Source of the DNA: a virus
Length of the DNA: 49,694 nt
Direction: 5' to 3' (one strand)
IMG/VR virus record: IMGVR_UViG_3300007734_000950
Coordinates: 1 to 49,694 of that record
Shown: piece after piece, positions 13,767-45,649 of the stretch
Layout: every line of letters starts with the position of its first letter
How positions within the stretch are numbered: the stretch's first letter is position 1
The notes under the pieces: generated by a model
Database searches by the model: none
Told to the model about the DNA's origin: nothing
What the model saw: only the letters and a program-made list of their open reading frames with translations
Made by a program: the position numbers and the translations under genes

Positions 13767-13780
13767 AAACAAATAAAAAT

Positions 13781-14002
13781 ATGGAACAAAGTTATCCAAA
13801 TATGAAGTCAACTGTTACCACTCAAGGTGAAGTAGTTACTCAAATTATTCATTTTGTAGGAGGAGTTAAAAGAACATACCATAGTATAATATCATCTTCA
13901 ATAAAACAAGGACAATTCACTAAATTTAAATGTGTTGATGGTAGTATGGTTATGATTAATGATATTAATGTTTTGTGCATAGAAGTTTTTACCGAAAAAT
14001 AA
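13781..14002 (+). CDS. Hypothetical small protein
   Basis: A protein of 73 residues. I prefer ATG 13781 (MEQSYPNMKSTV), 14 bases after the previous stop, over the in-frame TTG 13736 or ATG 13748 that overlap it. The sequence alternates strands (VTTQGEVVTQIIHFVGGVKR, then FKCVDGSMVMINDINVLCIE), suggesting a small beta-barrel. No function assigned. Confidence 0.6.
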   Translation: MEQSYPNMKSTVTTQGEVVTQIIHFVGGVKRTYHSIISSSIKQGQFTKFKCVDGSMVMINDINVLCIEVFTEK

Positions 14003-14009
14003 TAAAATT

Positions 14010-16805: not shown

Positions 16806-16819
16806 ATTTATTATATTAA
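16789..16819 (+). promoter_or_regulatory. Promoter for the 16.8-19.9 kb genes
   Basis: TTG at 16789-16791 lies inside the end of the RmlC-like gene. After 20 bases comes TATATTAA (16812-16819), just before the ATG at 16824. Confidence 0.55.
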
Positions 16820-16823
16820 TAAT

Positions 16824-17741: not shown

Positions 17742-17744
17742 AAT

Positions 17745-19261: not shown

Positions 19262-19853
19262 TCAACTTAATACTAAAGGATTCACGATTATAGATAACAT
19301 TTTACCTTTAGAATTAGCTAATAATTTATATGAAACTTATAAACAAGAATCTAAGTGGGAATTATTTAATCAAATAAGAGAAACTCACTATAATCATGTT
19401 TTTAAATCTCCTAATCCTTTCCTACCCCAAGAAGGAGAAGCATACTCAGCTAAATTTAACAGATCTAACAACTTAGAAAATTCAACAGTAGTTAAAAATG
19501 TTTTTGATAATTATTTAGTACCTTTATTAAAAGCAATTTCCCCATTTGAAATAAATGAATATGATGTTAGATGTTATAAGTTAAATATTGGTGACTATTA
19601 TAGAACTCATATTGATGATTATGCTGGTGCTGTTAATATGATTTATTATGTTAATAAAGAATGGAGATGGGATTGGGGAGGAGTTTTAAATGTTTATTCT
19701 CATGAAGATTTAGAATTTTGTGAGTCTATACTTCCTAGATTTAATAGAGTTGTTTTATTAAATAATAAAATTTTTAGAGCACCACATAGTGTAAGCACAG
19801 TAGAAACATATGCTTTAAATCCTAGATATACAATAGTTTCTTTTAATAAATAG
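19230..19853 (+). CDS. 2OG-Fe(II) oxygenase (prolyl-hydroxylase-like)
   Basis: A protein of 207 residues with all expected ligands: His127-x-Asp129 in YYRTHIDDYAG, His186 in RAPHSVSTV and Arg199 in NPRYTIVSF. The DWGGVLNVY segment between them is typical of the P4H/Tpa1-like group. Such phage-encoded oxygenases are common in large phages; substrate is unknown. An alternative start is the ATG six bases downstream. Confidence 0.88.
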   Translation: MEMLYTSENINQLNTKGFTIIDNILPLELANNLYETYKQESKWELFNQIRETHYNHVFKSPNPFLPQEGEAYSAKFNRSNNLENSTVVKNVFDNYLVPLLKAISPFEINEYDVRCYKLNIGDYYRTHIDDYAGAVNMIYYVNKEWRWDWGGVLNVYSHEDLEFCESILPRFNRVVLLNNKIFRAPHSVSTVETYALNPRYTIVSFNK

Positions 19854-19854
19854 T

Positions 19855-19885
19855 TTGGCAAATACAAAAAAATTTTATATATTCA
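19855..19885 (+). promoter_or_regulatory. Promoter for the TPP-enzyme / dideoxysugar operon
   Basis: TTTGGCAAAT is placed right at the preceding stop. Its TTG (19855-19857) is 20 bases from TATATTCA (19878-19885). The same TTTGGCAAA form of the -33 element occurs at the 28373 promoter. Confidence 0.65.
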
Positions 19886-19892
19886 ATTTAAT

Positions 19893-20519
19893 ATGAAAAT
19901 TCCTCAACATTATCAAAAAGTTAGAGATGTTAAGACAACACCTCAAGAACTTATAGCTTTTGAAGACAAAGTAAAAGAAGCTTATGAAGCTGGAAAAATA
20001 AAAGGACCCATTCATCTATCCAAAAACAATGAAGATCACCTAATTGATCTATTCCAGTACATTCATCCTGATGATTGGGTTTTATCTGCTTGGAGAAACC
20101 ACTACCATGCTTTACTCCATGGAGTTAATCCTGATAAATTATTTGAATGGATTAGTGAAGGAAGAAGTATGGGGACTAATAATATAAAACCTAATTTTTA
20201 TGCTTCTTCTATTGTAGGAGGAATTATTCCTATCTCTTTAGGAGTAGCTATGGGACTTAAAAGAAAAAATTCACCTAGACGAGTTTGGTGTTTTATAGGT
20301 GATATGACTATGGAAACAGGAATATTCTATGAAGCATATAAGTATTCTCAAAACTTTAATTTGCCTTTACAATTTGTAGTTGAAGACAATAACTTAAGTG
20401 TCCACACACCTACAGATGTAGCTTGGGGTAAACGAATGAAAGCCCCAGAAAATGTAATTTATTATTCATACAAAATGTCTTATCCCCATCACGGAACAGG
20501 TAAATGGGTTAATTTTTAA
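19893..20519 (+). CDS. TPP-dependent enzyme, pyrophosphate-binding (E1 alpha-like) subunit
   Basis: A protein of 208 residues corresponding to one transketolase/E1 alpha diphosphate-binding domain. The thiamine-diphosphate motif is GDMTMETG ... EDNNLSV, a variant of GDG-x(~25)-NN with Met in place of the third Gly. The companion gene at 20530 supplies the pyrimidine-binding domain. In this setting, next to a ColD-like dehydratase, it could transfer a carbon unit to a keto-dideoxysugar, as in branched-sugar pathways; this is inferred. Confidence 0.85.
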   Translation: MKIPQHYQKVRDVKTTPQELIAFEDKVKEAYEAGKIKGPIHLSKNNEDHLIDLFQYIHPDDWVLSAWRNHYHALLHGVNPDKLFEWISEGRSMGTNNIKPNFYASSIVGGIIPISLGVAMGLKRKNSPRRVWCFIGDMTMETGIFYEAYKYSQNFNLPLQFVVEDNNLSVHTPTDVAWGKRMKAPENVIYYSYKMSYPHHGTGKWVNF

Positions 20520-20529
20520 AATTAAAATT

Positions 20530-21066
20530 ATGAAATACTTTGACGAATTAAAAAGAGCAATGGAATGGTTAGGAACTAAACCTAACACAGTATTTACAGG
20601 TCAAGCAATAGGTTTTAGTGGACATGCTATTTCAAATACAATGGCTAATGTACCTCAAGATAAAAGAATAGAATTACCTGTTTTTGAAGAATTACAATTA
20701 GGGATAGCTACTGGTATGGCTTTAGAAGGTTGGGTGCCGGTTACATGTTATCCTCGATTTGATTTTTTTATTTTAGGATTAAATCAATTGGTTAACCATT
20801 TAGATAAAATGCAAGATATGTCTAAAGGAGATATGAAACCAAAAGCTATTATTCGAGTAGCAGTTGGCTCTAAAGTCCCATTCAGTGCTGGTCCTCAACA
20901 TACTCAAAACCATACTGAAGCAATTAGGCAAATGCTAACCGAAGTAGAAGTAGTTGAATTAACAGAACCAGACCAGATTTTCGAAGCATTTAAAACAGCA
21001 TATGAACGTGAAGACGGAAAATCAACATTAATTATTGAACATAGTGAATATTATGGAACAAAATAG
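20530..21066 (+). CDS. TPP-dependent enzyme, pyrimidine-binding (E1 beta-like) subunit
   Basis: A protein of 178 residues, only the Pyr domain; the C-terminal transketolase domain found in normal E1 beta or transketolase is missing. The conserved Glu of the Pyr domain is in ELPVFEELQLGIATGMA, and VPFSAGPQHTQNHTEA is a typical transketolase loop. With the preceding gene it would form a minimal alpha2beta2 TPP enzyme. Confidence 0.85.
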   Translation: MKYFDELKRAMEWLGTKPNTVFTGQAIGFSGHAISNTMANVPQDKRIELPVFEELQLGIATGMALEGWVPVTCYPRFDFFILGLNQLVNHLDKMQDMSKGDMKPKAIIRVAVGSKVPFSAGPQHTQNHTEAIRQMLTEVEVVELTEPDQIFEAFKTAYEREDGKSTLIIEHSEYYGTK

Positions 21067-22225
21067 TTTTAATTGGCCTTTAATAAATGACAACGTTACT
21101 CCCTCAGATAGAAAAGTATTATCTGATTTTATTTTAAGTGGAGAAAGACTTACAAATGGTCCTAAAGTAAAAGAATTTGAAAAACTTTGGTCTAACTGGC
21201 TAGGAGTTAAACATAGTGTTATGGTTAATTCTGGGGCTTCTGCTAATTATATTTCTATTGCTATGGTTAAAGAATTACTTGGCGAAGGAGAAATTATAGT
21301 ACCCCCATTAGGATGGGTTTCAGACATTTCATCCGTAGTTCAACTAGGAATGACCCCGGTATTTGTAGATATTAGTATGAATAATTTAGCTATAACAGCT
21401 GAGAATATTAAAAATGCTATTACTTCAAAAACAAAAGCAATTGTTTTAGTTCATTGTTTAGGATTTAACGGTTTAACAGATGAAATTGTATCTATAGCTA
21501 AACAACATAATTTAATATTAATTGAAGATTGTTGTGAATCACATGGTGCTGTTTTTAAAGATCAAAAAATAGGTACATATGGAGATATTTCTTTATTTTC
21601 ATTTTATTTTGGTCATCATATTACTACAGTTGAAGGTGGTACTATATGTGTAAATGATGATAAATTATATGATTTAGCTAAACTATTTCGTTCCCATGGT
21701 ATGACTCGAGAAGCATCCCAAGAATTACAAACCGAATATCAAACCAAATATCCTCATTTAAATCCACTTTTTACGTTTGCTGTAGCAGGATTTAACATGC
21801 GCAGTACAGAAATTAATGCCGTATTAGGTATTGAGCAAATGAAACGTATAGATTACAACATCCAAAAACGTACTGATAATTTAAATGTTTGGTTAGATAA
21901 TCTTAATAGAAGCAAATTTATGGTTGATTTTAACACTAAAGGAAGTAGTAATTTTGCTTTACCTTTAGTATTACAAGCATCACAAATAGATAAATTAAAA
22001 GATATATGTAATATTCTTGAACAAGAAAAAGTTGAATATAGATTAGGAACAGCAGGAGGTGGTAATCAAGCATTACAACCTTATTTAAAGAAATTTCCCC
22101 ACAGAATAGAGGGTATTTTATCTATTGCTAATTATATTCATTCTAATGCATTATATATAGGAAATCATCCTGAATTAACCAAAGAACAAATTATTAATCT
22201 GTGTAAAAAATTAAATAATGTTTAA
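21053..22225 (+). CDS. PLP-dependent sugar 3-dehydratase, ColD/RfbH-like (His in place of Lys)
   Basis: A protein of 390 residues from ATG 21053 (a TTG at 21035 is also in frame). The fold is DegT/DnrJ/EryC1, with cofactor Asp159 in LIEDCCESHG. At the place where aminotransferases carry the PLP-binding Lys (SFxxxKxxxxGEGG), this protein reads FYFGHHITTVEGG, with His188-His189. A His here is diagnostic of ColD and RfbH, which remove the 3-hydroxyl of 4-keto-6-deoxysugars rather than transaminate. With the GDP-mannose-dehydratase-like gene at 24824, the likely product is a GDP-4-keto-3,6-dideoxyhexose. Confidence 0.9.
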   Translation: MEQNSFNWPLINDNVTPSDRKVLSDFILSGERLTNGPKVKEFEKLWSNWLGVKHSVMVNSGASANYISIAMVKELLGEGEIIVPPLGWVSDISSVVQLGMTPVFVDISMNNLAITAENIKNAITSKTKAIVLVHCLGFNGLTDEIVSIAKQHNLILIEDCCESHGAVFKDQKIGTYGDISLFSFYFGHHITTVEGGTICVNDDKLYDLAKLFRSHGMTREASQELQTEYQTKYPHLNPLFTFAVAGFNMRSTEINAVLGIEQMKRIDYNIQKRTDNLNVWLDNLNRSKFMVDFNTKGSSNFALPLVLQASQIDKLKDICNILEQEKVEYRLGTAGGGNQALQPYLKKFPHRIEGILSIANYIHSNALYIGNHPELTKEQIINLCKKLNNV

Positions 22226-23189
22226 ATATCAAAAAGTTTTAGTTACCGGGGGTGGGGGCATGATTGGCCGCTCTTTAGTAAAATTCCTTTTAGAACGAGG
22301 AGCAAATATTACAATAGCTGATTTAACTACACCTACTGATCTACCCCATGGGGTTAAATTTATTAAAGTAGACTTACGTTACTTTGATCAATGTGAAGCA
22401 ATTTGTAACGGAATGGATTATGTATTTAATCTAGTAGGTATTAAAGGCTCACCCAAAATGTGTGCAGAACAACCAGCAGATTTTATGGTACCTATGCTCC
22501 AGTTTAATACTAATATGATGGAAGCCGCTCGCAGAGCAAATGTAAAATGGTATTTATACACTAGTTCAGTTGGAGTATATGCACCTGCTGAAGTATTTAA
22601 AGAAGATGATGTATTAAATACTGTTCCTTCTCCAAATGATAAATTTGCAGGTTGGGCTAAACGAATGGGAGAAATGCAAGCCGAAGCTTACTCAATCCAG
22701 TATGGATGGAATAAAGTATCTATTGTTAGACCTGCTAATGTTTACGGGGCTTATGATAATTTTAACCCAGCTAACGCTATGGTTATTCCTTCATTAATTA
22801 GAAAGGCCCAAGAAAACGAAGTATTAGAAGTATGGGGTGATGGATCAACAATTAGAGATTTTATTCATGCTGATGATGTTGCTTTAGGAATGATATTTGC
22901 AGTTGAAAACCAAATTACTCAACCTATAAATTTAGGTTCAGGCGAAGGATATTCTATTAAAGAAGTAGTAGATATGGTAGTAAAATATGCTAATAAACCT
23001 TTAGAAGTAAAATGGTTAACAGATAAACCTGCTGGGGATAAAATTCGTTTATTTGATATGACTCGAGCTAAAAATTATGGATTTAATACTTTAATATCAC
23101 TAGAAGAAGGAATTAAAAGAACTACTGAATGGTTTTTAAATAATAAGGAAATTTTAGATAAACGCTATAATGCTTTTGTAAATCACTAA
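22218..23189 (+). CDS. NAD-dependent sugar epimerase/dehydratase (extended SDR)
   Basis: A protein of 323 residues. The cofactor motif VTGGGGMIGRSL opens the chain, and SIVRPANVYGAYDNF and VWGDGSTIRDFIHADD are typical of extended SDR sugar enzymes. The catalytic helix reads DKFAGWAKRMGE: the Lys is present but the Tyr expected four residues before it is Ala. This may define a subfamily or an altered chemistry. It overlaps the dehydratase gene by eight bases. Confidence 0.88.
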   Translation: MFKYQKVLVTGGGGMIGRSLVKFLLERGANITIADLTTPTDLPHGVKFIKVDLRYFDQCEAICNGMDYVFNLVGIKGSPKMCAEQPADFMVPMLQFNTNMMEAARRANVKWYLYTSSVGVYAPAEVFKEDDVLNTVPSPNDKFAGWAKRMGEMQAEAYSIQYGWNKVSIVRPANVYGAYDNFNPANAMVIPSLIRKAQENEVLEVWGDGSTIRDFIHADDVALGMIFAVENQITQPINLGSGEGYSIKEVVDMVVKYANKPLEVKWLTDKPAGDKIRLFDMTRAKNYGFNTLISLEEGIKRTTEWFLNNKEILDKRYNAFVNH

Positions 23190-23878
23190 TGGAAAAATTT
23201 TTAATAACCGGGATAGGGAGTGGGTTAGGTAAATACCTTTATAGTAATATTCCTAATGCTGTTGGGTTAAATAGAAATAACTTTACAGAAATAAAAACTC
23301 AAAGTTATGATACAATTGTGCACTGTGCTTTTAATAAAGAAAATGATATAACTGATTATAAAAAATATTTAGATGACAATATATTTTTAACCCAACGATT
23401 AAAAGCATTAAACTATAAAAAATTTATTTATATATCTACTATAGATATCTACCAGGATTTTTGTAATTCATATATTCAATTTAAAAAATTCTCTGAATCA
23501 ATGTTAGAGGATAATGATTTAATATTGCGATGCTCTATGATGTTAGGGGATACTATGAAACCTAATCATATTACTAAAATTAAAAGCAATATTGATTCTA
23601 TATCCCTATCAGAAGAATCAACTTTTAATTATATATTAATGGATAGTTTAGTTGAATTTTTTGTTAGTCAAGATTACCAGCATTATAATGGAGTACTTGA
23701 CTTTGTCTCTAACACAGAAATTAAATTAAAAAAAGTAAAAGAATATTTTAATTCATCTACATTATTAGGAGAATATGTTTATAAAAGTAATTTGGATTTT
23801 TATAATCCTATTTTTATATTAGATAAAAAATATAGTAAATCATCATTTGAAAATTTAAGACAATATTATGAAAAGTAA
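23189..23878 (+). CDS. Short NAD-dependent epimerase-like protein (SDR)
   Basis: A protein of 229 residues. LITGIGSGLGKYLYSN is the nucleotide-binding loop; IYISTIDIYQ and the following YIQFKKFSESML give a YxxxK pair (Tyr, then Lys four later). It is shorter than a standard extended SDR, with a reduced C-terminal substrate domain. Likely a keto-reductase of the sugar pathway. Its ATG overlaps the preceding stop by one base. Confidence 0.82.
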   Translation: MEKFLITGIGSGLGKYLYSNIPNAVGLNRNNFTEIKTQSYDTIVHCAFNKENDITDYKKYLDDNIFLTQRLKALNYKKFIYISTIDIYQDFCNSYIQFKKFSESMLEDNDLILRCSMMLGDTMKPNHITKIKSNIDSISLSEESTFNYILMDSLVEFFVSQDYQHYNGVLDFVSNTEIKLKKVKEYFNSSTLLGEYVYKSNLDFYNPIFILDKKYSKSSFENLRQYYEK

Positions 23879-24827
23879 TTTTTTTAAGGATAAAAAAGTA
23901 GTAGTTACAGGAGGCTCAGGATTTATTGGCACTCATTATATTTTAGAATTATTAGAAAGAGGAGCTAAGGTTAAAACTCATACCCATGAAAAACCACTTC
24001 AGATACAAGATGATAGAATTGAAATTGTAGAAAATATTGATCTAACTAATTTGGATGATTGTTTTAAACTTATAGATGGAGCTGATTATGTTATACATTC
24101 TGGAGGGAAAATTGCTCACCCATCAACTGTCCCAACTGATATCCAAATATCAATGCAAAATATTATGGTATTAGGAAATGTATTAGAGGCTTCTTATAAA
24201 TCTAATGTTAAAAGATTTTTAGACTTAAATAGCTCAACAGGCTACCCAGACATTAGAAGACCATTAACTGAAGATGAATTTTGGGTAGATGAACCATATA
24301 AATCTTACTTTGGATATGGCTGGATGAGACGATATAGAGAAAAGTTAATGGAGCATGTTTCTAAATTCTCAAAAATGGAAATAGCTCTAGCCCGTGGAAC
24401 TGCAATTTATGGACCAAATGATAATTTTGATCCTAAAACATGCCATGTAGTACCGGCTTTAATTAAAAGAGTATTAGATGGTGAAGACCCATTTATTGTT
24501 TGGGGCACTGCAGACGTAGTTAGAGATTTTTTATATGTTAAAGATGTAGTAAAAGCAGCATTGTTAGTATTAGAAAAAGGTGAATCTATGAGACCTTATA
24601 ATGTTGGTTCTGGGGTAGCAATTACTGTTGGGGATATTGTTAATGCTATTTTAAAAGCCACCAATAAAACCCCAGAAGTAATTTATGATGCCTCAAAACC
24701 AACAACAATTCCATTTAGAATGGTTAGTACAGAAAGATTAAATAATGAATTAGGATTTACACCTGACTATACATTTGAAGAAGGCATTAAAGAAACAGTT
24801 GAATGGTATATTAAAAATAAAATATGA
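23868..24827 (+). CDS. NAD-dependent sugar epimerase/dehydratase (extended SDR)
   Basis: A protein of 319 residues. VVVTGGSGFIGTHYIL is the cofactor loop, and ARGTAIYGPNDNFDP and VWGTADVVRDFLYVKD are family landmarks. In the catalytic helix, YFGYGWMRRYRE, Tyr is kept but the Lys four residues later is Arg. It is a near paralogue of the 22218 product, suggesting duplication and divergence for successive steps. Overlaps the preceding gene by 11 bases and the next by four. Confidence 0.88.
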   Translation: MKSNFFKDKKVVVTGGSGFIGTHYILELLERGAKVKTHTHEKPLQIQDDRIEIVENIDLTNLDDCFKLIDGADYVIHSGGKIAHPSTVPTDIQISMQNIMVLGNVLEASYKSNVKRFLDLNSSTGYPDIRRPLTEDEFWVDEPYKSYFGYGWMRRYREKLMEHVSKFSKMEIALARGTAIYGPNDNFDPKTCHVVPALIKRVLDGEDPFIVWGTADVVRDFLYVKDVVKAALLVLEKGESMRPYNVGSGVAITVGDIVNAILKATNKTPEVIYDASKPTTIPFRMVSTERLNNELGFTPDYTFEEGIKETVEWYIKNKI

Positions 24828-25834
24828 ATAGAGTACTAATTACAGGCATTACGGGGATGGTAGGGTCACACTTGGCTGATTACCTCCTAAAAAATACAGA
24901 TTGGAAAATCTATGGTTTAACCCGATGGAATGATTCATTAGAAAATATTGAACATTTGGTTGAAGAAATAAATAAAAAAGAACGAATTGAACTCGTTTAT
25001 GGTGATTTAAATGATTTAGCATCACTAAATGTTGCAGTAAACAAATCTAAGCCTAATTATGTATTCCATTTAGCTGCTCAATCTTACCCCCAAACTAGTT
25101 TTGATTCACCAATTGAAACACTTCAAACAAATATTTTAGGAACAACTAACTTATTAGAAGCTTTAAGGTACTCAAATTATAAAAATGCAATAATTCATGT
25201 TTGTGCTTCAAGTGAAGTTTTTGGTAGAGTACCTAAAGAAAAACTTCCAATCAATGAAGAATGTTCATTCCATCCTGCATCACCATATGCTATATCTAAA
25301 GTAGGGACAGACTTAGTAGGTAGATATTATGCCGAAGCATATGGAATGACTATTATGACTACTAGAATGTTTACTCATACTGGCCCAAGAAGAGGAGATG
25401 TATTTTCAGAATCAACATTTGCTAAACAAATAGCTATGATTGAAGCAGGGTTGCAAGAACCTAAAATTTATGTTGGAAATTTAGAATCATTAAGAACATA
25501 TGCTGATGTAAGAGATGCAGTTAATGCTTATTACATGCTAGTTACTATTAATCCTACATCTGGTGAGTATTATAATATAGGAGGTACCTATACTTGTAAA
25601 ATTAGTGATATGCTTAATTATTTAATTAGCCAATCAACAGTTAAAAATATTGAAATAATAATAGACCCAGAACGCTTGAGACCAATTGATGCTGATTTGC
25701 AAATACCAAATTGTGATAAATTTAAAAACCACACAGGATGGGAACCTAAAATTTCATTTGAAACAACAATGGATGATTTATTAAATTATTGGAGAGATAA
25801 AATTAAATCTGGACGTAAATTTTTAAGACGATGA
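24824..25834 (+). CDS. GDP-mannose 4,6-dehydratase-like enzyme
   Basis: A protein of 336 residues (Gmd is about 350). Diagnostic segments: LITGITGMVGSHLADYLL, the active-site ASSEVFG, YAISKVGTDLVGRYY with the YxxxK pair, TRMFTHTGPRRGD, and LRPIDADLQIP near the end, which is typical of GDP-mannose dehydratases. Converts GDP-mannose to GDP-4-keto-6-deoxymannose, the substrate for a ColD-type dehydratase and for GDP-fucose synthesis. Confidence 0.88.
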   Translation: MNRVLITGITGMVGSHLADYLLKNTDWKIYGLTRWNDSLENIEHLVEEINKKERIELVYGDLNDLASLNVAVNKSKPNYVFHLAAQSYPQTSFDSPIETLQTNILGTTNLLEALRYSNYKNAIIHVCASSEVFGRVPKEKLPINEECSFHPASPYAISKVGTDLVGRYYAEAYGMTIMTTRMFTHTGPRRGDVFSESTFAKQIAMIEAGLQEPKIYVGNLESLRTYADVRDAVNAYYMLVTINPTSGEYYNIGGTYTCKISDMLNYLISQSTVKNIEIIIDPERLRPIDADLQIPNCDKFKNHTGWEPKISFETTMDDLLNYWRDKIKSGRKFLRR

Positions 25835-26571
25835 AAATATTAGTTATAGGAGATAAATGTGATGATGTATTTCGTTATGGGGAAGTAAATAGATTAGCCC
25901 CCGAAGCACCTATCCCCATTATTATACCCGAAAGAGAAACCTCTAACCCAGGAATGGCAGGAAATGTAGTACGAAATTTAGAAGTATTAGGTGCTGAGGT
26001 GGAATTTATTCATAATCATTACCCAATTAGAAAAATTAGATATGTTTGTTCAAAATATAATCATTTACTTTTACGAGTTGATGAAAATGATAAATGTGAA
26101 AATATTAGTGAATATTATGATTTAACTCCTCTAAAATGGGAGCAATATGATGCTGTTGTGATTAGTGATTACTGCAAAGGGTTTCTGAATGAAGATGATA
26201 TTGAATATATTTCTTCAAAGCATCCCTTAACATTTTTAGATAGTAAAAAACTATTAGGAAATTGGGCACATAATATTAGTTTTATTAAAATTAACTATAA
26301 TGAATATGAAAAAAATAAAAATGTTTTTTTAATAGATAATATACTTAAAAACAAAACAATTACTACTAGAGGAAAATATGGATGTGATTATCAAAACAAA
26401 AATTACCCCACTAAAGAAGTACCAGTAAAAGATGTTTCTGGAGCAGGGGACACATTCCTTGCAGGGTTAGTAGTAGAATATATTAAATCAAAAAATATAG
26501 AGTCTGCTATTAATTTTGCTCAAGAATGCACTACCATTGTTGTCCAGAAATTAGGAGTATCAACAATTTAG
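25831..26571 (+). CDS. PfkB-type sugar kinase, HldE N-terminal-like
   Basis: A protein of 246 residues, shorter than the HldE kinase domain (about 320) but with its hallmarks: RLAPEAPIPIIIPERE, NPGMAGNVVRNLEVLGAEV, LLRVDEND, SDYCKG and the catalytic DVSGAGDTFLAG with the base Asp. The end VVQKLGVSTI also matches HldE. It would phosphorylate heptose 7-phosphate at C1; the nucleotidyltransferase partner is at 12974, 12 kb away. Other hexose or pentose phosphates remain possible. Confidence 0.85.
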   Translation: MKILVIGDKCDDVFRYGEVNRLAPEAPIPIIIPERETSNPGMAGNVVRNLEVLGAEVEFIHNHYPIRKIRYVCSKYNHLLLRVDENDKCENISEYYDLTPLKWEQYDAVVISDYCKGFLNEDDIEYISSKHPLTFLDSKKLLGNWAHNISFIKINYNEYEKNKNVFLIDNILKNKTITTRGKYGCDYQNKNYPTKEVPVKDVSGAGDTFLAGLVVEYIKSKNIESAINFAQECTTIVVQKLGVSTI

Positions 26572-26595
26572 TAATAAAAAATAAATAATATAATA

Positions 26596-27453
26596 ATGGA
26601 AACAACAGCCGTGTTATTAAATTGCCGAAATGACGGTTATAAAGAGGATGATAGATTTATAGTTTGTATTAATTCTATGTTAGAAACATTTGATGAAGTA
26701 TGGTACTGTGATTGGAATTCCCCTTCTGATAAAGGATCTATGTTATGGAAATTAAAAGATTATATCCCCAAGACTGGTAAAATTAGACATTTTGTAATAG
26801 ACCCAGCTACAACAGATTTATTAACAGGGCATGATCCTAGAATAGGAGATTTTTCCTATATTATTCCTCAAAATATATTACTTCGAAGATGTAAAGCGGA
26901 TTGGATTGTAAGTTCGGCTATAGACATTATTGCTCCTAAAAAAGAATATTTGGATAATTTTTTATCTAAAGCAAATAAGAATACTTTTTACTCAATTTCA
27001 AGGCGTGATGTTGAATATGAAGATTTAGAAAAAATAGGATTTGATAAATGGAGAGAATTTAGAGATAAAATGGATAAAACATCCCAACCCAGAATATTCC
27101 CAACCAAAGTTACTCCTAATGATGAATATAGTCTAATTAATTGTTGTGGTGATTTTCAAACAGCACATAGAGATGTTTGGAATAAAATAAAAGGATTTGA
27201 AGAGCAAATGATATATGCTTGTTTTCAAGATACTAATATACAGAAAAAAGCAGTTTTAAATGGATATAATTTAGAAGCTCATTTTAATTTACCCTTATAT
27301 CATATGTCTCATAAAGGTATGGGAAATGACGGATCATCTCCTTCAAAACAACACTACAATGACGCGTGGAAATGGGTAGAATTTTTTACAGAATCTGAAA
27401 ATGACGAAAATTGGGGGTTAGCTAGTACTGAAATTGAATTTGAGATTATTTAA
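26596..27453 (+). CDS. GT-A glycosyltransferase-like protein
   Basis: A protein of 285 residues. The N-terminus AVLLNCRNDGYKEDDRFIVC resembles GT2 openings; ADWIVSSAIDIIAP occupies the metal-binding position (a degenerate DxD). The NCCGDFQTAHRDVWNKIKGF segment with FQDTNIQKKAVLNGY matches the C-terminal part of galactosyltransferase-like GT-A proteins. Last gene of the glycan cluster. Confidence 0.75.
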   Translation: METTAVLLNCRNDGYKEDDRFIVCINSMLETFDEVWYCDWNSPSDKGSMLWKLKDYIPKTGKIRHFVIDPATTDLLTGHDPRIGDFSYIIPQNILLRRCKADWIVSSAIDIIAPKKEYLDNFLSKANKNTFYSISRRDVEYEDLEKIGFDKWREFRDKMDKTSQPRIFPTKVTPNDEYSLINCCGDFQTAHRDVWNKIKGFEEQMIYACFQDTNIQKKAVLNGYNLEAHFNLPLYHMSHKGMGNDGSSPSKQHYNDAWKWVEFFTESENDENWGLASTEIEFEII

Positions 27454-27800: not shown

Positions 27801-27962
27801 ATGTGTTTCTATTTTTATAGCATAAATGATCCTAAAAAAGAACCTATTGTTAAACATAACTTTGATTCTTATTTTGAAGCTTTGGAATATTTTTCTGCTC
27901 TAAAAAAATTCTCCCCTAGTCAATTTTTACAAATATTTGAAATTGGAAGTTATGATGAATGA
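27801..27962 (+). CDS. Small hypothetical protein
   Basis: A 53-residue frame starting with MCFYFYSINDPKKEPIVKHN, one base after the previous stop. It fills an otherwise empty interval and ends overlapping the next start by 11 bases, a packing typical of this genome. Aromatic-rich; no homology recognised. Confidence 0.6.
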   Translation: MCFYFYSINDPKKEPIVKHNFDSYFEALEYFSALKKFSPSQFLQIFEIGSYDE

Positions 27963-28371
27963 ACCAAATGAATTAGAATTTGATGATATTAAAGAAATCA
28001 AAAATGCCTTTGAAACTATTCTAGGATCTCCTGTAGAAATTGAATACACATCTGAATTAGTCAAGGAAAGGGAAGTGTTTATTTCTATTATAGAGGATTT
28101 ACTTAACCTTACTTCTCAAAACAACTTAGTATTCACCACTACAGGAATAGATATTAATTCTATTGTTGATCCATATTTAGGAGTAATAGAAAAACTATTT
28201 GTTTTACACTTTGGAGACGAAGCATTTGATATAATTATTTGGTTTCTTACCAAAACCAATTCCCCAGGAGGCACTAAAACTAAACTAGAAGATATAGATG
28301 GAAATCTATATAAAATAGATACTCCTGAAGAATTATGGGAATTTCTTACCAAAAGATTTTATTCAGAATAA
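27952..28371 (+). CDS. Conserved phage protein, paralogue of the 39207 gene
   Basis: I start at ATG 27952 (TTATGATG) rather than TTG 27937; product 139 residues. The C-terminal half, DPYLGVIEKLFVLHFGDEAF ... ELWEFLTK, aligns by eye with the 39207 product (DPYHQIISTLIEEIYGKEGL ... SLWEYLEK). The family seems to be a small acidic alpha/beta protein. Function unknown. Confidence 0.72.
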   Translation: MMNEPNELEFDDIKEIKNAFETILGSPVEIEYTSELVKEREVFISIIEDLLNLTSQNNLVFTTTGIDINSIVDPYLGVIEKLFVLHFGDEAFDIIIWFLTKTNSPGGTKTKLEDIDGNLYKIDTPEELWEFLTKRFYSE

Positions 28372-28372
28372 T

Positions 28373-28403
28373 TTGGCAAAAGTTAATTTTTATCGTATAT
28401 TTA
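28373..28403 (+). promoter_or_regulatory. Promoter for the DksA-like gene
   Basis: TTTGGCAAA with TTG at 28373-28375, 20 bases, then TATATTTA (28396-28403). Strong match to the window consensus. Confidence 0.7.
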
Positions 28404-28420
28404 CATAAAATTAATTTTAT

Positions 28421-28756
28421 ATGGCAATTAAACACTGTAAATCTTGTGGAGTAGAAATTGATCCACGTCGTTTGGCAATTCTTCCAACAACTGAAACTTG
28501 TACTCAACACTCTACTATTGAGAAAAAAGTTGCAGTTACTAAACAAATGGGTGAAGGTGATCACACCTGGACTGAAACATTTGTATTAGAAAGAGATGAA
28601 TTTGAGAAACTAGAAGCTTTAGAGAAAAATCTTCGTAAAATTTCAAATGCTTCTCCTAAAGTTGATGCTATTGACTTTGAGGAAGAAGATGAAGAAGAAG
28701 AAAAAGAAGAAGATTTGAAAAATAATCTTAATTTATTAGACGATCTTATAGACTAA
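28421..28756 (+). CDS. DksA/TraR-like zinc-finger protein
   Basis: A protein of 111 residues. The N-terminal CKSCGVEIDPRRLAILPTTE followed by CTQH matches the zinc finger of DksA/TraR, with His replacing the last Cys. The C-terminus is a run of Asp/Glu (residues 85-100). DksA-type proteins bind RNA polymerase through its secondary channel; here the usual coiled coil is missing or placed differently, so a general zinc-finger role is safer. One base separates it from the next gene. Confidence 0.68.
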   Translation: MAIKHCKSCGVEIDPRRLAILPTTETCTQHSTIEKKVAVTKQMGEGDHTWTETFVLERDEFEKLEALEKNLRKISNASPKVDAIDFEEEDEEEEKEEDLKNNLNLLDDLID

Positions 28757-28757
28757 A

Positions 28758-29393
28758 ATGCCAAAAGCAAAGCCCCTTACTAAAGAATATATCTTAGCAG
28801 CTATGAATAAGACTAAGTCTAATCGTGCTGCAGCTAGATATCTTAATGTTAGTTATATTCATTATAAAAAATGGGCTAAATTTTATAAAGATGAACCCAC
28901 AGGTGTAAGTTTATTTGAAAAACACAAAAACCAAAGTGGAAAAGGCATCCCTAAATTCTTAAATCAAGGAAAAAAAGACCCTGCCCTCATAGATGTTATT
29001 GAGGGTAGGGTCGATCCTGCTCATTTTAGCCCACAAAAAATCAAATATAGATTGTTAGAAGAGGGGTATTTAAAAGAAGAATGCTCTTTGTGTGGGTTCC
29101 ATGAACGTCGAGTTTTAGATTATAAAATGCCACTTATAATGCATTTTAAAGATGGAAATAAAAAACACTATCGCCTAGAGAACCTTGAAATGTTGTGTTA
29201 TAATTGTTATTTTTTAACAATTGGAGACATATTTACCGGTAAACAACTGGATGGTTTAGAAGACCATAAACCTATGAATAGCAGCCAGGTTGATTGGGAA
29301 GTAGATGATTATACTACTCAACGCTTAAAAGAACTAGGATTAGGTGACCCTCCAGATGTTGATGATGATTATGATTTAATATCTAGAATATGA
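28758..29393 (+). CDS. HNH-like zinc protein with N-terminal HTH
   Basis: A protein of 211 residues. Residues about 15-45 (NRAAARYLNVSYIHYKKWAK) look like a helix-turn-helix. The C-terminal half has CSLCGFHERR ... IMHFKDGNKKHYRLENLE ... CYNCYF: the four-Cys zinc frame and the H...N order of an HNH nuclease. The final catalytic His is Tyr (CYNCY), so it may be inactive or a DNA-binding derivative. Endonuclease or late regulator are both possible. Confidence 0.75.
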   Translation: MPKAKPLTKEYILAAMNKTKSNRAAARYLNVSYIHYKKWAKFYKDEPTGVSLFEKHKNQSGKGIPKFLNQGKKDPALIDVIEGRVDPAHFSPQKIKYRLLEEGYLKEECSLCGFHERRVLDYKMPLIMHFKDGNKKHYRLENLEMLCYNCYFLTIGDIFTGKQLDGLEDHKPMNSSQVDWEVDDYTTQRLKELGLGDPPDVDDDYDLISRI

Positions 29394-29545
29394 AGCATAA
29401 AAAACATGATAAAATTAAAAATGATTATTCTAAACAAAAGAGTAAACATTTAGAAGATTTAGCTTCACAATTACTTAGAAATGAAGAAAAATCTAGTCAA
29501 TTAAAAGGATATGATATCAATGATGAATGGCTAAATCTATTTTAA
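29390..29545 (+). CDS. Small basic hypothetical protein
   Basis: A 51-residue frame starting with MKHKKHDKIKNDYSKQKSKH, overlapping the previous stop by four bases (ATGA) and the next start by 19. Lys/His-rich first half, helical LEDLASQLLRNEE second half. The overlaps on both sides argue that it is translated. Confidence 0.6.
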   Translation: MKHKKHDKIKNDYSKQKSKHLEDLASQLLRNEEKSSQLKGYDINDEWLNLF

Positions 29546-29850
29546 CAAATAAAGAATTTAATTGTAACACCATTGAAGATTTTTATCAAATGGCTGAAAA
29601 CAATGACTTTAGAATAGCTAAAGCAGTAGTAGAAACCATTCTGAGTAATTTAAATACTAAAAAAAGATTTGTTAATGTTATGTCTATAAACATCCTTAAT
29701 ACAGGAGAAGTTATAGATCTAACAGCTGATAGAAAAGAATTTATAAGTATTTTAAAGAAAAACATAGTTCACTATGAAAAACAAGAGTTATATGAGGATT
29801 GTATAAAAATCCAAAATGCTATAGAATATCTTATTTCTAAACAAAGCTAG
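29527..29850 (+). CDS. Hypothetical protein, paralogue of the 27485 product
   Basis: A protein of 107 residues. Its C-terminal segment ILKKNIVHYEKQELYEDCIK corresponds to the UVR-like tail of the 27485 protein. The central NVMSINILNTGEVIDLTAD is strand-rich. Function unknown; a shared protein-protein contact is a reasonable inference. Confidence 0.75.
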   Translation: MAKSILTNKEFNCNTIEDFYQMAENNDFRIAKAVVETILSNLNTKKRFVNVMSINILNTGEVIDLTADRKEFISILKKNIVHYEKQELYEDCIKIQNAIEYLISKQS

Positions 29851-34771: not shown

Positions 34772-34800
34772 ATGTATATTCGGCATGGCCTGATATACAT
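34772..34800. repeat. Nested palindrome between genes
   Basis: ATGTATAT (34772-34779) and ATATACAT (34793-34800) are perfect inverted repeats. Inside them GGC-ATG-GCC forms a second short dyad. Could be an operator or an RNA hairpin; the next gene starts at a TTG that overlaps its end. Confidence 0.6.
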
Positions 34801-35033
34801 TGGGATTAAGATTAGATAGAAAACTTGAGTTCCAAAATAAAACATTTATTGCAGACGATATAATAGATGAAATTATTATGGAAACACTTCGACTAACCGA
34901 AGAAGAATATCGTTTCCTTAATGAAAACACATCTGATGAAAATTTAGAGTTATTAACATTAATAATCCCAACATTTTCCCAAAAGAAAAAAATACTTAAG
35001 TACCTTCAAGAATTCATTTATGATAAAATTTAG
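34800..35033 (+). CDS. Small acidic hypothetical protein (TTG start)
   Basis: A protein of 77 residues from TTG 34800; an in-frame stop lies just upstream, and the first internal ATG would leave only about half. Helical, Glu-rich (DDIIDEIIMETLRLTEEEYR). Its end overlaps the T9SS-domain gene by 14 bases. The start is uncertain because the TTG lies at the edge of a palindrome. Confidence 0.55.
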   Translation: MGLRLDRKLEFQNKTFIADDIIDEIIMETLRLTEEEYRFLNENTSDENLELLTLIIPTFSQKKKILKYLQEFIYDKI

Positions 35034-35355
35034 GTTTGTAAACATATTTTTAGGTTGCATCATTAGTATTAGTTCTTATTCTCAAATATATGTTCCTAAT
35101 ACTTTTACTCCTAATGGAGATAATAAAAACGATCATTTTCAAGTAATAACTGATGATACTTTAAGTTTTTATGAGTTACAAATATATAATCCTAGTGGTG
35201 AAAAAATATTTTTCTCTAATGATCCTAGCCAAGTTTGGTTAGGTGGTGTGTATTATTATTCTCCCAATGATGTTTATTCTTATAAATTAAGCTATAAGTA
35301 CCCTGACAATCCTGTGCTTTACACAAAATGGGGGTCTATATTATTGTTGCGTTAA
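35020..35355 (+). CDS. Secreted protein consisting of little but a T9SS type B sorting domain
   Basis: A protein of 111 residues. Residues 1-22 are a signal peptide ending SYS-Q. The mature part starts at once with IYVPNTFTPNGDNKNDHF, then YELQIYNPSGEKIFF, and ends WGSILLLR: the gliding-motility-associated C-terminal (CHU_C) domain, in order and at normal length. This domain normally follows a large passenger and directs it through the type 9 secretion system. Here there is no passenger. It may be a fibre subunit, or a decoy that occupies host T9SS components. The type B assignment is firm; the role is inferred. Confidence 0.88.
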   Translation: MIKFRFVNIFLGCIISISSYSQIYVPNTFTPNGDNKNDHFQVITDDTLSFYELQIYNPSGEKIFFSNDPSQVWLGGVYYYSPNDVYSYKLSYKYPDNPVLYTKWGSILLLR

Positions 35356-35370
35356 GTTTAAAAATCAAAT

Positions 35371-35401
35371 TTGGATTTTTAATTTATTGTTATTATCTTT
35401 A
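35371..35401 (+). promoter_or_regulatory. Promoter for the HYR-like secreted protein and GH16 genes
   Basis: TTGGATTTTT, 20 bases after its TTG, TATCTTTA (35394-35401). The -33 region also forms the right arm of an AAAAATC / GATTTTT dyad (35360-35380). Confidence 0.75.
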
Positions 35402-40229: not shown

Positions 40230-41378
40230 ATGCTCCACCCAAAATTAGTTATAATTTTATTATTAGTATCTTCCTTAAACCTTTTTAGCCAATGCCCAAA
40301 TTCTAATTTTGAATATGGAAACTTTACAGGCTGGACTGGGAAAAGAGGAACTTGTTGCCCATTAAATCTTGGCACTACAGGTATAATAGCTGGAAGACAA
40401 ACTATAATGACTCAAGGAATAGATCCCCACAGTTGTGGAGGATTACCTACAGTATATCAGGGTAGTTTTTCAGCTAGATTAGGGAATGATGGAGTTGGGA
40501 GTAGAGCCGAAGCACTGTATTATACATTCACTGTTACTCCTCAAAATACTCTTATACAATATGCATATGCTGTTGTACTACAAGACCCAGGACATAATGA
40601 TGGAGATCAACCTGCTTTTCAATCCAGAGTAAGATTACCCAATGGTAATATAGTCCCATGTACTGAATATTACGTCTCAGCAGGCCCCAACTTACCAGGA
40701 TATCATTATTGCCCTGAAATAGATGCTTTGGGAGCTCCAGTACTGGTAGCGTGGAGTGATTGGAGGGTTATTACTTTAGATGTTTCGGCTTATGTGGGCC
40801 AAACCCTAACCTTAGAGTTTATAACTAATGATTGTGCTTTAGGAAGACATTATGGCTATGCCTATATAGATGCAATATCTTGTGGACCAATCGAAACAGA
40901 AATTCGTTATTGTCAGGCTAGTGATTCAATATTAGTAATGGGCCCTTCAGGATTTGCTACTTACGAATGGGAACCTACAGGCGATACTACCCAAACAATC
41001 ATTATTCCATCAGGGATATATTCGTCTTTAACTCTTCATGTAACTACAGTAACAGGATGTGCTTTAGACTTACCTGTAGAGTTGGATCCAATCCCATTAT
41101 TTGCATCTATAGCATGTGAAGATATTTGTTTAGAAGAAATTAGTAATTTTATAAATTTAACCATGCCCGTTCCTGGATATAATACATCATATCTATGGGA
41201 TTTTGGTGATGGTACTACCTCTACTCAATTTCAACCTAGTCATCTTTATATAAATCCGGGAACATATACTGTTACTATGACTGCTAGTGTAGTTGGGGCA
41301 ACATGTACTGATATAACTACTTGTGAGGTTACAGTTAATCCTCCGATGTCTCCTCTTACTCGTATATGGCATGACTAA
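40230..41378 (+). CDS. Secreted PKD-domain adhesin-like protein
   Basis: A protein of 382 residues with a signal peptide ending LFS-Q. Residues about 25-225 are a Cys-containing carbohydrate-binding-like beta domain (NSNFEYGNFTGW start, FTVTPQNTLIQYAYAVVL core). Two Ig-like modules follow, the last a PKD repeat (SYLWDFGDGTTS ... GTYTVTMTA). The chain ends VTVNPPMSPLTRIWHD; the next gene ends in a related tail. No full sorting domain, so it may be assembled with the CHU_C-bearing protein two genes later. Confidence 0.85.
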   Translation: MLHPKLVIILLLVSSLNLFSQCPNSNFEYGNFTGWTGKRGTCCPLNLGTTGIIAGRQTIMTQGIDPHSCGGLPTVYQGSFSARLGNDGVGSRAEALYYTFTVTPQNTLIQYAYAVVLQDPGHNDGDQPAFQSRVRLPNGNIVPCTEYYVSAGPNLPGYHYCPEIDALGAPVLVAWSDWRVITLDVSAYVGQTLTLEFITNDCALGRHYGYAYIDAISCGPIETEIRYCQASDSILVMGPSGFATYEWEPTGDTTQTIIIPSGIYSSLTLHVTTVTGCALDLPVELDPIPLFASIACEDICLEEISNFINLTMPVPGYNTSYLWDFGDGTTSTQFQPSHLYINPGTYTVTMTASVVGATCTDITTCEVTVNPPMSPLTRIWHD

Positions 41379-41465
41379 TCTATGAAAAATATTAATTCGT
41401 CTCCCAATTGATTTATTAATTTCTTTTTTAATATTTATTACCAAACCACCCAAAAAAAACAATTT

Positions 41466-42029
41466 ATGAGAAAACTCTTATCGTTACTGCTACTAATACT
41501 CCCAGTTACATTAGTAGCTCAATTATCAAATACAAACCCTGATACTGTTTGTTATCAAAACACTATTAATTCAACCTATGTAACAGATTTAGTTGCAGGT
41601 TATACCTATACTTGGTCAGTATCCGCCCCAGGTGTTATTACTTCAGGTCAAGGAACAGAAACAATTACTGTTGATTGGTCAACAGCTGCTCCTGGATTAA
41701 TAAATGGAGCTGTTAGTGTTTTTGCTACAAGTGCTGAAGGATGTGTAGGTCCTCCAATCAATATTGATGTATTTGTGTTACAGGTTGTTCCAACTGCTAC
41801 TCCACTTACATTTTGTGAAGATGATCCTTGTGCTCCACTTATTGGAACCCCACTTGGAGGTACATGGTCAGGATCACCATATATTAGTGGCAACCAATTT
41901 TGCCCTACAGACCCAGGAACATATAATGTGACATACACATATGATATTCCAGGATGTGGTCCTGTAGCTGTAGTAACAACAATAACTGTTAATCCAACTC
42001 CTGTGCTAAATGAAATAACCCATGATTAA
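41466..42029 (+). CDS. Secreted Ig/PKD-like protein
   Basis: A protein of 187 residues with a signal peptide ending LVA-Q. One PKD-like module (GYTYTWSVSAPGVITSGQ ... ETITVDWSTAAPG) and a second Cys-bounded module (FCEDDPCAPLIGTPLGG ... GTYNVTYTYD). It ends ITVNPTPVLNEITHD, matching the I-x-H-D end of the 40230 product. The stop overlaps the next ATG (TAATG), coupling it to the type B protein. Confidence 0.85.
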   Translation: MRKLLSLLLLILPVTLVAQLSNTNPDTVCYQNTINSTYVTDLVAGYTYTWSVSAPGVITSGQGTETITVDWSTAAPGLINGAVSVFATSAEGCVGPPINIDVFVLQVVPTATPLTFCEDDPCAPLIGTPLGGTWSGSPYISGNQFCPTDPGTYNVTYTYDIPGCGPVAVVTTITVNPTPVLNEITHD

Positions 42030-42598
42030 TGAAATACCTATTGACATTACTTTTAGTTTTTGTCTATAAGGTTATATGTGCTCAACAAGAAATAGTTTTA
42101 TGCGAAGAAGAAAGAACAGAATTTACTTATACTGTAAGCGCTAATGTACCATTAACTTCAATTTATTGGTATGTGGATGGTGTATTACAATTTGGTCAAC
42201 AATTGACCATTAATTGGCAAAATTACGATCCTGGAGAACATACTCTTTTAGTGTATGGATTTGTAGGAGAATGTAGATCAGCCCCATTAAGCTACAAAGT
42301 TTTTCTTTCGGGTTGTTCTACAATTTATATACCAAATGTGTTTACCCCTAGTGGTAAAGATGGTATAAATGATACTTGGTATCCTATAGGAACAGGATGG
42401 AGAGGAATACAAGTGATGGTATTTGATAGATGGGGAGAATTAGTTTTTGAATCCACAGATATAAACGGACAGTGGATTGGAAATTTTAGAGGAGGAGAAT
42501 ATTATGTCCAAAATGATGTATATGTTTATAAAGTAATATGGACTAACCATGAGTATGAAACAGAAACAATATACGGACATGTAACAGTAGTAAGATAA
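42029..42598 (+). CDS. Secreted protein with T9SS type B (CHU_C) sorting domain
   Basis: A protein of 189 residues. Signal peptide ending ICA-Q, one Ig-like module of about 75 residues, then a textbook gliding-motility-associated C-terminal domain: IYIPNVFTPSGKDGINDTW, IQVMVFDRWGELVFES, a WIG turn, NDVYVYKVIW and YGHVTVVR at the end. In Flavobacteria this directs export through the type 9 system and surface attachment. It probably carries the two preceding Ig-like proteins, an inference from coupling and shared tails. Confidence 0.92.
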   Translation: MKYLLTLLLVFVYKVICAQQEIVLCEEERTEFTYTVSANVPLTSIYWYVDGVLQFGQQLTINWQNYDPGEHTLLVYGFVGECRSAPLSYKVFLSGCSTIYIPNVFTPSGKDGINDTWYPIGTGWRGIQVMVFDRWGELVFESTDINGQWIGNFRGGEYYVQNDVYVYKVIWTNHEYETETIYGHVTVVR

Positions 42599-43378: not shown

Positions 43379-45649
43379 ATGAAAAAGTCGTTTTTTACTT
43401 TGTTATTTATTATGTTTTCTTTATTAGGTTTTTCTCAAAACTTAGTTGAAAATGTAAACAGTCAAGTATTATTAACCCCTAAGAGCCCAACCGAAAATAA
43501 TTTGGTTGAAGCATTTTTTGAATTCTACAATATTGAAGTAGTCCAGTATTTTGACCAACTCAATATTTACCTTGTTAAATCCGATAATTATGATGAATTA
43601 GCATCCCATTGTCAGGAAAGTAGTTTGTTTGCTATTGTTGAAAAAGACAGATTAGAAGAAATTAAAATGGATTATATTCCAAATGATCCTGAGTTTGCTT
43701 CTGCATGGCATTTAAGACAGTCAACAGATAAAGATATTGATGCTGATGAAGCTTGGGATTTACTTCCTACCACTAACCAGTGGGTATCAGTAGCAATGCT
43801 TGATGGTGGTTTAGATATGACAATGCCTGAATTTGTAGGCAATGTTGATAGTCCATTTAATGCTGTTAACGGTACCAATTCTATTCCTTATGTTAATGCT
43901 GAAGATAAACATGGTACTGCTTGTTCAGGTACAATTGCTGCTAAAACTAATAATGGTATTGGTGTTAGTAGTGTAGGTAATAATTATGTTAAAGTTATGC
44001 CAATTTGTATCATGTCGCAAGTATATGCTGGTGGTAGTTTTGCTACTACATCTGCTATTCAAATTGCGGCAGTTAACGCTGCAATGGCTAATCCTAATTG
44101 TGTTGCAATCGCAATGTCATATGGTGGTAGTGGCTACTCAGCAACCCTAGAAGCAGCCTTCCTTTCAGCCAGAACAAATGGACGTGGTGGTAAAGGTATG
44201 ATGATATTTGCTTCATCTGGTAATGGATATTCAGGTACAGCAGCTCAATACCCAGCTAATTATAATGGAGTTTGGGGAGTAGGTGCCACAACAAGTACAG
44301 ATGTTAGAGCTTCTTTCTCCAACTACGGACAAATTTGTGATATATCAGCCCCAGGTCAAAGTATTAGAACCACAGACCGTTTAGGTGCTGATGGTTATAA
44401 CACTACTGATTATACTTCAATTAGTGGTACTTCATTTAGTTGTCCTATCACAGCAGCAGCATCAGCTGTTATTGCATATAAGAACTGGGAATTAACTGAT
44501 GATGAAATTTTACAAATATTATCTAATACTTGTGAAAAAGTAGGAGGTTATGTTTATAATAATGACCCTGCTTGGCCGTATAGTACTCGTAGTAATGAAT
44601 TAGGATATGGTCGTATTAATTTAAAAGATGCTGTTATAGCTACCCCCAATCCAGGTGGAACACCACCACCTCCTCCAACCCCAATAGCCAACTTTACTAT
44701 TAATAATATGATAGTAACCCCAGCTAGTGTTAATTTAGGTGAAGTTATTCTTGTAAATTATAATGCTATTACTACAGAACCTACTTTACCTGAAGCTTCT
44801 GTAAAAATACAGTATCGTTATTCAAACAATGCTACCTTTGGTGATAGTGATGATATTATTATTGGGATCGATAGTGTAACTTTAGGAGGAGGTATTGCCT
44901 CAGTTACTAAATCATTTTCATACACAGTTGGAGGTATAGCAGGTGTGCGTTATGTATTCGCAACAATAAACTATGATAATGCTGTTGGAGAAGCAATGTC
45001 TACTGATAATAATGCTTCTAGATCATTTAATGTTGTTAATCCTTCCATTGCTGGAACTGATATTAGACTTGAATTAGTACAACCTACAGCTAATCCTTGG
45101 ACAACTTCTTTACAAATAGTCAATTGCCAATGGAGAGCAGTTAATACCGGTACTACTACTATTACTCAAATTAACTGGTCTAGGCGTTGGGTAAATTGCA
45201 CATCACAATTTGGTTGTGTAAGTAATTCAACCTGGAATGGCACACTACTCCCAGGACAATCAATATTACTACCTGGTACTAATTCATATGTTAGTGTAAA
45301 TTTATGTCATCCTACTTTCTGTGCGGTTCCTGTAGGGAGTTCAAATACGTATAGAGCGGATGTGATAAGTGTTAATGGTAGTACTGGAGATGCTGATTTA
45401 ACAAACAATAGAGTTGATTTAGTATTTAACAGAATTTCTACAAACGAAGAAGATATAATGGGTAATCATGTTATTTTAGAGGACCCAAACTCAACCTCTA
45501 CTGAAGATGAGTATCCATTATCAATTCAGATTTATACAGTAACCGGAATGTTATTAGATGTAAATAGGTATAATGAATTACCTAGTGGTATTTATATAAT
45601 TAAGGAAAATTATACAAATAAATCTAAAACATACAAATGGGCAAAATAA
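43379..45649 (+). CDS. Secreted subtilisin-like protease with T9SS type A sorting domain
   Basis: A protein of 756 residues. Signal peptide ending GFS-Q; residues 21-100 look like an I9-type propeptide. The S8 catalytic domain has Asp142 (AMLDGG), His178 (DKHGTACSGT), oxyanion Asn282 (SSGNG) and Ser352 (SGTSFSCP). A Pro-rich linker near 425-435 leads to two beta-sandwich domains, the second CARDB-like (DLTNNRVDLVF). The last about 60 residues (YPLSIQIYTVTGMLL ... LPSGIYIIKEN ... KTYKWAK) are a T9SS type A sorting domain. Likely exported by the host to its surface or medium. Confidence 0.93.
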   Translation: MKKSFFTLLFIMFSLLGFSQNLVENVNSQVLLTPKSPTENNLVEAFFEFYNIEVVQYFDQLNIYLVKSDNYDELASHCQESSLFAIVEKDRLEEIKMDYIPNDPEFASAWHLRQSTDKDIDADEAWDLLPTTNQWVSVAMLDGGLDMTMPEFVGNVDSPFNAVNGTNSIPYVNAEDKHGTACSGTIAAKTNNGIGVSSVGNNYVKVMPICIMSQVYAGGSFATTSAIQIAAVNAAMANPNCVAIAMSYGGSGYSATLEAAFLSARTNGRGGKGMMIFASSGNGYSGTAAQYPANYNGVWGVGATTSTDVRASFSNYGQICDISAPGQSIRTTDRLGADGYNTTDYTSISGTSFSCPITAAASAVIAYKNWELTDDEILQILSNTCEKVGGYVYNNDPAWPYSTRSNELGYGRINLKDAVIATPNPGGTPPPPPTPIANFTINNMIVTPASVNLGEVILVNYNAITTEPTLPEASVKIQYRYSNNATFGDSDDIIIGIDSVTLGGGIASVTKSFSYTVGGIAGVRYVFATINYDNAVGEAMSTDNNASRSFNVVNPSIAGTDIRLELVQPTANPWTTSLQIVNCQWRAVNTGTTTITQINWSRRWVNCTSQFGCVSNSTWNGTLLPGQSILLPGTNSYVSVNLCHPTFCAVPVGSSNTYRADVISVNGSTGDADLTNNRVDLVFNRISTNEEDIMGNHVILEDPNSTSTEDEYPLSIQIYTVTGMLLDVNRYNELPSGIYIIKENYTNKSKTYKWAK

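Follow-up and report, generated by a model that had tools for sequence, protein, structure and literature searches.

Proteins that consist of a signal peptide (SP) joined directly to a type B (CHU_C) sorting domain of the type 9 secretion system (T9SS), with no passenger between the two, are a real and recurrent protein type of phages, and in the best-sampled clade they are under purifying selection. The case from which this analysis starts is encoded at 35020-35355 of a 49.7-kb IMG/VR fragment of a large virus of Bacteroidota (the window, meaning the whole stretch of DNA analysed), whose genes include those for a DNA polymerase, GroEL, thymidylate synthase and an HNH protein, along with sugar-nucleotide and glycosyltransferase genes and four tRNAs. 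As argued below, such an empty cargo may act by occupying the surface-protein carriers of its host.

Architecture and fold of the 35020-35355 protein

The reading frame opens with an ATG, and its N-terminus comprises an n-region with K/R residues, a hydrophobic core and an ISSYSQ end, after which the protein runs from IYVPNTFTPNGD to ILLLR. The signal peptide was assigned by eye and from homologues (MKKLLVIAAMFVGATAFAQ followed by DVYIPNAF). The CHU_C domain lies at the extreme C-terminus and reaches the final residue, and because there is no passenger, the mature form being the domain alone (Table 1), the protein is classed as the bearer of a sorting domain and not as an ordinary cargo protein. 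Residues 24-93 match the Pfam family PF13585 (CHU_C; E 6e-12, 46 bits, cut-off 27). The NCBIfam model TIGR04131 gives 32.8 bits, slightly under its cut-off of 35, which is passed by all five phage homologues tested, one of them marginally (38.3 bits). The conserved motifs are altered in the window copy, where NRWG reads NPSG and WDG reads WLG; WDG is retained in the homologues.

An AlphaFold2 model built on a 57-row alignment (pLDDT 86, pTM 0.73) has as its best PDB match 8glk_D (TM 0.69 by target, probability 1.00, Foldseek E 0.006), a T9SS substrate C-terminal domain (CTD) within its translocon complex, and RemA-CTD and RemZ complexes appear lower among the matches. An earlier note on this DNA had described a CHU_C domain that follows a signal peptide with no passenger in between and had proposed structure prediction as a check; the Pfam score, the length of the mature form and the match to 8glk_D bear this description out. 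Among viral models in BFVD there are seven significant matches, mainly CHU_C-type proteins. One BFVD entry with a matching fold, A0A8D9CF28 (108 aa), is named 'putative lyase' and is possibly a misannotated passenger-free CHU_C protein. No PHROG family matched the CHU_C proteins tested, the 35020-35355 protein included, and a PADLOC search with this protein gave no credible match (best 13.6 bits, E 0.0096). A chance match to CHU_C is ruled out by the profile, the fold and the recurrence described next.

Table 1. Features of the window (all on the + strand)
Feature	Coordinates	Strand	Evidence or remark
Small ORF, no confident family	34800..35033	+	3' end overlaps CHU_C gene start by 14 nt
Passenger-free T9SS type B (CHU_C) protein, 111 aa	35020..35355	+	PF13585, TIGR04131, AlphaFold2 model and Foldseek matches to T9SS CTDs
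Predicted Sec signal peptide, ~22 residues, MIKFRFVNIFLGCIISISSYSQ	35020..35085	+	Sequence; alignment with signal peptides of homologues
CHU_C domain, the entire mature protein (~89 aa)	35086..35352	+	Pfam match, alignments
A+T-rich 9-bp hairpin followed by T-rich sequence	35358..35382	+	Directly past CHU_C stop; fold -5.1 kcal/mol
SP + PKD protein without CTD, ends IWHD; first subunit of split adhesin	40230..41378	+	PF18911
SP + PKD-like protein without CTD, ends ITHD; middle subunit	41466..42029	+	PF19408; 1-nt overlap with next start
Second CHU_C protein: SP + ~75-aa Ig-like domain + CHU_C	42029..42598	+	PF13585, E 1.9e-11
Secreted subtilase, SP, weak T9SS type A tail	43379..45649	+	PF00082, E 8.8e-31

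Recurrence in other viruses

The earlier note had also proposed a search for passenger-free CHU_C proteins in other phage genomes, and a survey of viral contigs, using alignment-based scans and a degenerate pattern and then a profile search of all ORFs, found SP+CHU_C proteins of 106-126 aa in about ten further viral records. Such loci are L012, L013, L009, L008, L010, L024, L038/L040/L041 and L055, and two uncultured huge phages of ~640 kb each have one passenger-free gene (L007, LR756502, and L334, LR745206). Three queries of 50,697 phage records found no cultured phage with the protein, the only matches being these two huge phages. A single-sequence search of viral contigs returned no close relative of the 35020-35355 protein, and alignment queries were needed; its homologues diverge down to ~30% identity, and every one has a predicted signal peptide. 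The idea that the protein is unique to this phage is ruled out by these homologues.

The passenger-free form has more than one origin. In a tree of 126 domains, built on a short domain, with many open forks and with L334 absent, no fewer than three shifts to the passenger-free form are needed to account for the supported branches; eight of the IMG/VR passenger-free domains make up one supported clade, and L007 and the window protein are placed elsewhere. These branches rule out that all passenger-free phage proteins go back to one origin. For close pairs in the best-sampled clade dN/dS is 0.06-0.29, which indicates purifying selection. Furthermore, the passenger-free gene is the sole CHU_C gene in three contigs of 148.8, 176 and 141 kb (G006, G007 and G008), so that these contigs hold no long CHU_C adhesin from which it could have arisen locally.

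The genes that flank the passenger-free gene vary between phages, as is expected for an independently acquired accessory gene. In L135 it follows the tail sheath, tail tube and minor coat protein genes, and other loci adjoin GroEL, a CCA-adding-type enzyme or unknown genes; neither one conserved neighbour nor a cognate carrier gene was found beside it across the phages examined. The position in L135, together with the frequency of Ig-like domains in tails, is what speaks for a minor virion or fibre subunit, the alternative offered by the earlier note. This alternative is highly improbable, because every homologue has a predicted signal peptide, tail genes adjoin the gene in no locus other than L135, the significant BFVD matches are mainly CHU_C-type and the nearest structures are secreted CTD proteins.

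The window copy itself may have arisen by passenger loss. At the corresponding place ahead of thyA the closest relative, L094, with which the window shares 16 genes, encodes a 513-aa CHU_C protein (7751-9292), and in the tree the window domain, on a long branch, is loosely grouped with that of L094 (98/74 and 87/60). Together with the altered WDG and NRWG and the sub-threshold TIGR04131 score, this would fit a 35020-35355 gene that is what decay has left of a gene for a long CHU_C adhesin. The ORF is nevertheless intact, the signal peptide clean and the fold predicted at the pLDDT given above, and remnants would not recur under purifying selection in other lineages, so that decay is unlikely. 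Because of the altered WDG and the score under the cut-off it keeps some probability for the window copy, and the argument from recurrence rests on the other lineages.

Carrier occupancy as a proposed mechanism

Type B cargo is held by a dedicated carrier of the PorP/SprF type (PMC9143113, PMC12618676, PMC12635249); it is anchored by, or kept on, this PorP-like carrier independently of PorU/PorV (PMC9143113, PMC12635249), and type B substrates require the carrier that is cognate to them (PMC12618676). In F. johnsoniae the type B carriers are of low abundance, stoichiometric and not recycled (PMC12618676). Overproduced type B CTD fusions remain unsecreted unless the carrier is co-expressed, and crosstalk among related CTDs occurs (PMC12618676). 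No PorP/SprF gene was found in the window or in 23 other phage records examined, whereas two host genomes have 15 and 4 such genes; given this lack in the phage records, the empty domain must depend on the carriers of the host.

An empty type B cargo that occupies host carriers is the best explanation of the protein, and one that we advance tentatively. Its signal peptide would take it to the periplasm via Sec, where the mature domain would, by homology and fold, be recognised by the host SprA translocon and by PorP/SprF-type carriers. Each empty domain that bound would cost the host one carrier, because the few type B carriers present are produced in step with cargo, remain attached to it and are not recycled. 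The same scarcity, stoichiometry and lack of recycling make carrier occupancy the likeliest mechanism. Host type B adhesins, for example gliding or attachment proteins, would then be displayed in smaller numbers on the infected cell, and the phage might gain superinfection exclusion, or a host that has lost gliding or adhesion during infection, although this gain is speculative. That unrelated viruses evolved an empty tag several times suggests jamming or occupation of host surface-protein carriers. The broader claim, that a stand-alone type B label which titrates PorP/SprF carriers and shuts off the display of host adhesins has arisen again and again in large phages of Bacteroidota, as an anti-host or superinfection-exclusion strategy, is possible but doubtful.

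The earlier note began from the premise that T9SS mutants are phage resistant, for which the partial literature search turned up no documentation, and had the decoy strip receptors from the cell surface; receptor loss with superinfection exclusion by the empty domain is speculative. As the target of the decoy it had named the translocon or an attachment enzyme. This target should give way to the carrier as the likely one, because the sortase acts on type A and not on type B cargo, the latter being PorU/PorV-independent and carrier-held (PMC9143113, PMC12618676, PMC12635249).

Several findings limit the proposal. The minimal type B secretion signal can reach 235 aa, and SprB secretion requires each of five CTD motifs (PMC12618676). 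As such a signal is longer than the mature phage protein, export is not assured, and a domain of ~89 aa that binds without efficient export might be a plug and not cargo. Carrier pairing is selective, and a host can have as many as 64 CHU_C genes along with several carriers, so that one decoy may affect few of them. The NRWG Trp is missing in most of the phage proteins and the window copy lacks the WDG Asp as well, which too counts against carrier occupancy. Of the decoy reading there thus remains a passenger-free type B domain that is recurrent and selected in one clade; its target has shifted to the carrier, and it is weakened by the 235-aa signal and by the short host forms described next. 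So corrected, as carrier occupancy, it is plausible.

Host counterparts and the NRWG tryptophan

Similar short proteins are found in hosts, and the architecture alone is therefore no proof of an antagonist. In five host genomes, 5 of the ~155 CHU_C proteins listed (about 3%) consist of a signal peptide, a linker of at most ~30 aa and CHU_C (L291-L295). Among these five listed short forms only L294 is truly passenger-free, and two of the five keep the NRWG Trp. Absence of the form from bacteria is ruled out by these short proteins, although the first 92 complete bacterial ORFs had none. The passenger-free form makes up 4 of 41 loci in the pattern-based viral set as against one strict case among the ~155 host proteins listed (Fisher p 0.007), or as against all five short host cases among the ~155 listed (Fisher p 0.09), in a comparison whose viral and host sampling schemes differ. 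The enrichment in phages is suggestive, not overwhelming.

The NRWG Trp is present in 104/106 other viral CHU_C domains and in 0/11 of the passenger-free or near-passenger-free ones of the first set (ten plus L060). L334, found later, retains it, and universal loss of the Trp in passenger-free phage proteins is thereby ruled out. Kinship inflates these counts, and collapsed to four lineages they become 1/4 versus 104/106 (p about 2e-4). The absence of an Ig domain in front of CHU_C, with which the Trp would otherwise be in contact, may explain the loss, as may an altered carrier interface. CHU_C matches were also seen in L212 (Glaciecola amylolytica, complete chromosome), L285 (Saccharospirillaceae MAG) and L215 (Kuenenia MAG). 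No T9SS would be expected in these organisms, and the matches may stem from contamination or from transfer.

The host counterparts and the Trp signature bear on a different reading, in which the domain is a displayed mini-protein that is exported, anchored on its carrier and functional through its own surface, by capping a PorP-like barrel, masking a receptor or serving as a small ligand, with carrier occupancy incidental. The near-passenger-free proteins among the host CHU_C proteins listed are consistent with it, a cap role has been proposed for PG1035 (PMC9143113), and the replacement of the NRWG Trp in nearly all passenger-free phage domains suggests a specialised surface. No conserved exposed patch was identified in the phage proteins, however, and they diverge to the ~30% identity noted above, so that this reading seems somewhat unlikely.

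Genome surroundings and a split CHU_C adhesin

The overlap of the small ORF with the CHU_C gene start makes translational coupling possible. The hairpin past the CHU_C stop is a possible, though weak, candidate for a transcript end, and a terminator scan that requires G+C found no terminator after the gene. Directly downstream, at 35418, lies a HYR protein gene whose product has a signal peptide and no CTD; other neighbours of secreted type are HYR, PKD and subtilase proteins, and a protein with a GH16 domain, in which no signal peptide is obvious, is encoded nearby as well. The type A tail of the subtilase scores 17.1 bits with TIGR04183 (cut-off 23) and 12 bits with PF18962. Elsewhere in the window, a long run at 9108-27453 includes glycosyltransferase, aminotransferase and nucleotide-sugar epimerase genes and suggests phage remodelling of surface sugars. 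A GroEL homologue is encoded at 4253-5872, and in L129 and L131, too, a GroEL gene lies close to the passenger-free one. A conserved four-gene cluster with an HNH endonuclease (27937-29850) is common to several of these phages.

At 40230-42598 a CHU_C adhesin is divided among three consecutive genes, each encoding a protein with a signal peptide, and the two CTD-less products share a conserved IxH(D/N) ending, found only in phage proteins of such operons. In other phages the relatives of the middle and last parts of this operon belong to single CHU_C chains of ~730-860 aa, those related to the middle part being ~820 aa long; the last part, the second CHU_C protein, has ~20 viral relatives and an AlphaFold2 pLDDT of 90. 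Among ORFs of at least 120 aa, the IxH(D/N) C-terminus occurs in 17/430 signal-peptide-like viral ORFs, in addition to those of the window, and in 0/908 other viral ORFs and 0/1,106 bacterial ORFs. Seven of the 17 genes are directly upstream of an SP-Ig-CHU_C gene, as are 41466-42029 in the window and a shorter L091 ORF, and the ending was found in none of 81 genes upstream of long CHU_C genes. The IxH(D/N) tail could be an assembly or sorting tail.

A split adhesin of this kind suggests that its own CTD-less subunits are anchored in trans, and the HYR protein at 35418, with its signal peptide and no CTD, would be a candidate partner if the empty domain of 35020-35355 held separate CTD-less secreted subunits on the cell surface. 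No conserved signal-peptide-bearing partner adjoins the passenger-free gene in other phages, though, and the weak hairpin stands between the CHU_C gene and 35418; anchoring in trans is distinctly unlikely.

Comparison with known systems

If carrier occupancy is correct, the protein would be a virus-encoded cargo mimic that inhibits type 9 secretion, as well as a small, ready-made probe of recognition between type B CTDs and carriers, and the retention by phages of a sorting signal without cargo would be accounted for. Even as a mere displayed mini-protein it would make export via the host T9SS a recurrent phage strategy. In a full-text literature search of partial coverage, no account came up of type B or passenger-free domains that are encoded by phages.

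The phage protein shares with T9SS type B proteins (PF13585/TIGR04131; SprB, PG1035) a predicted signal peptide, a C-terminal CHU_C domain, a T9SS CTD-like fold and an R/K end; unlike SprB and PG1035 it has no passenger, altered NRWG and WDG motifs and no adjacent PorP/SprF gene. The short host proteins L291-L295 resemble it in architecture, but they are bacterial and mostly keep a short linker. Three viral UniProt entries of 108-199 aa (A0A6J5L8Z9, A0A6J5NJX2 and A0A8D9CF28) have the same fold, under names that are automatic only. 'Cryophage' encodes T9SS type A cargo, for which superinfection exclusion has been suggested (Bellas 2020, PMC7468147). In both cases the phage supplies proteins tagged for export by the host T9SS, with enzyme or PA14 passengers on type A tails in Cryophage, and a type B domain with no passenger here.
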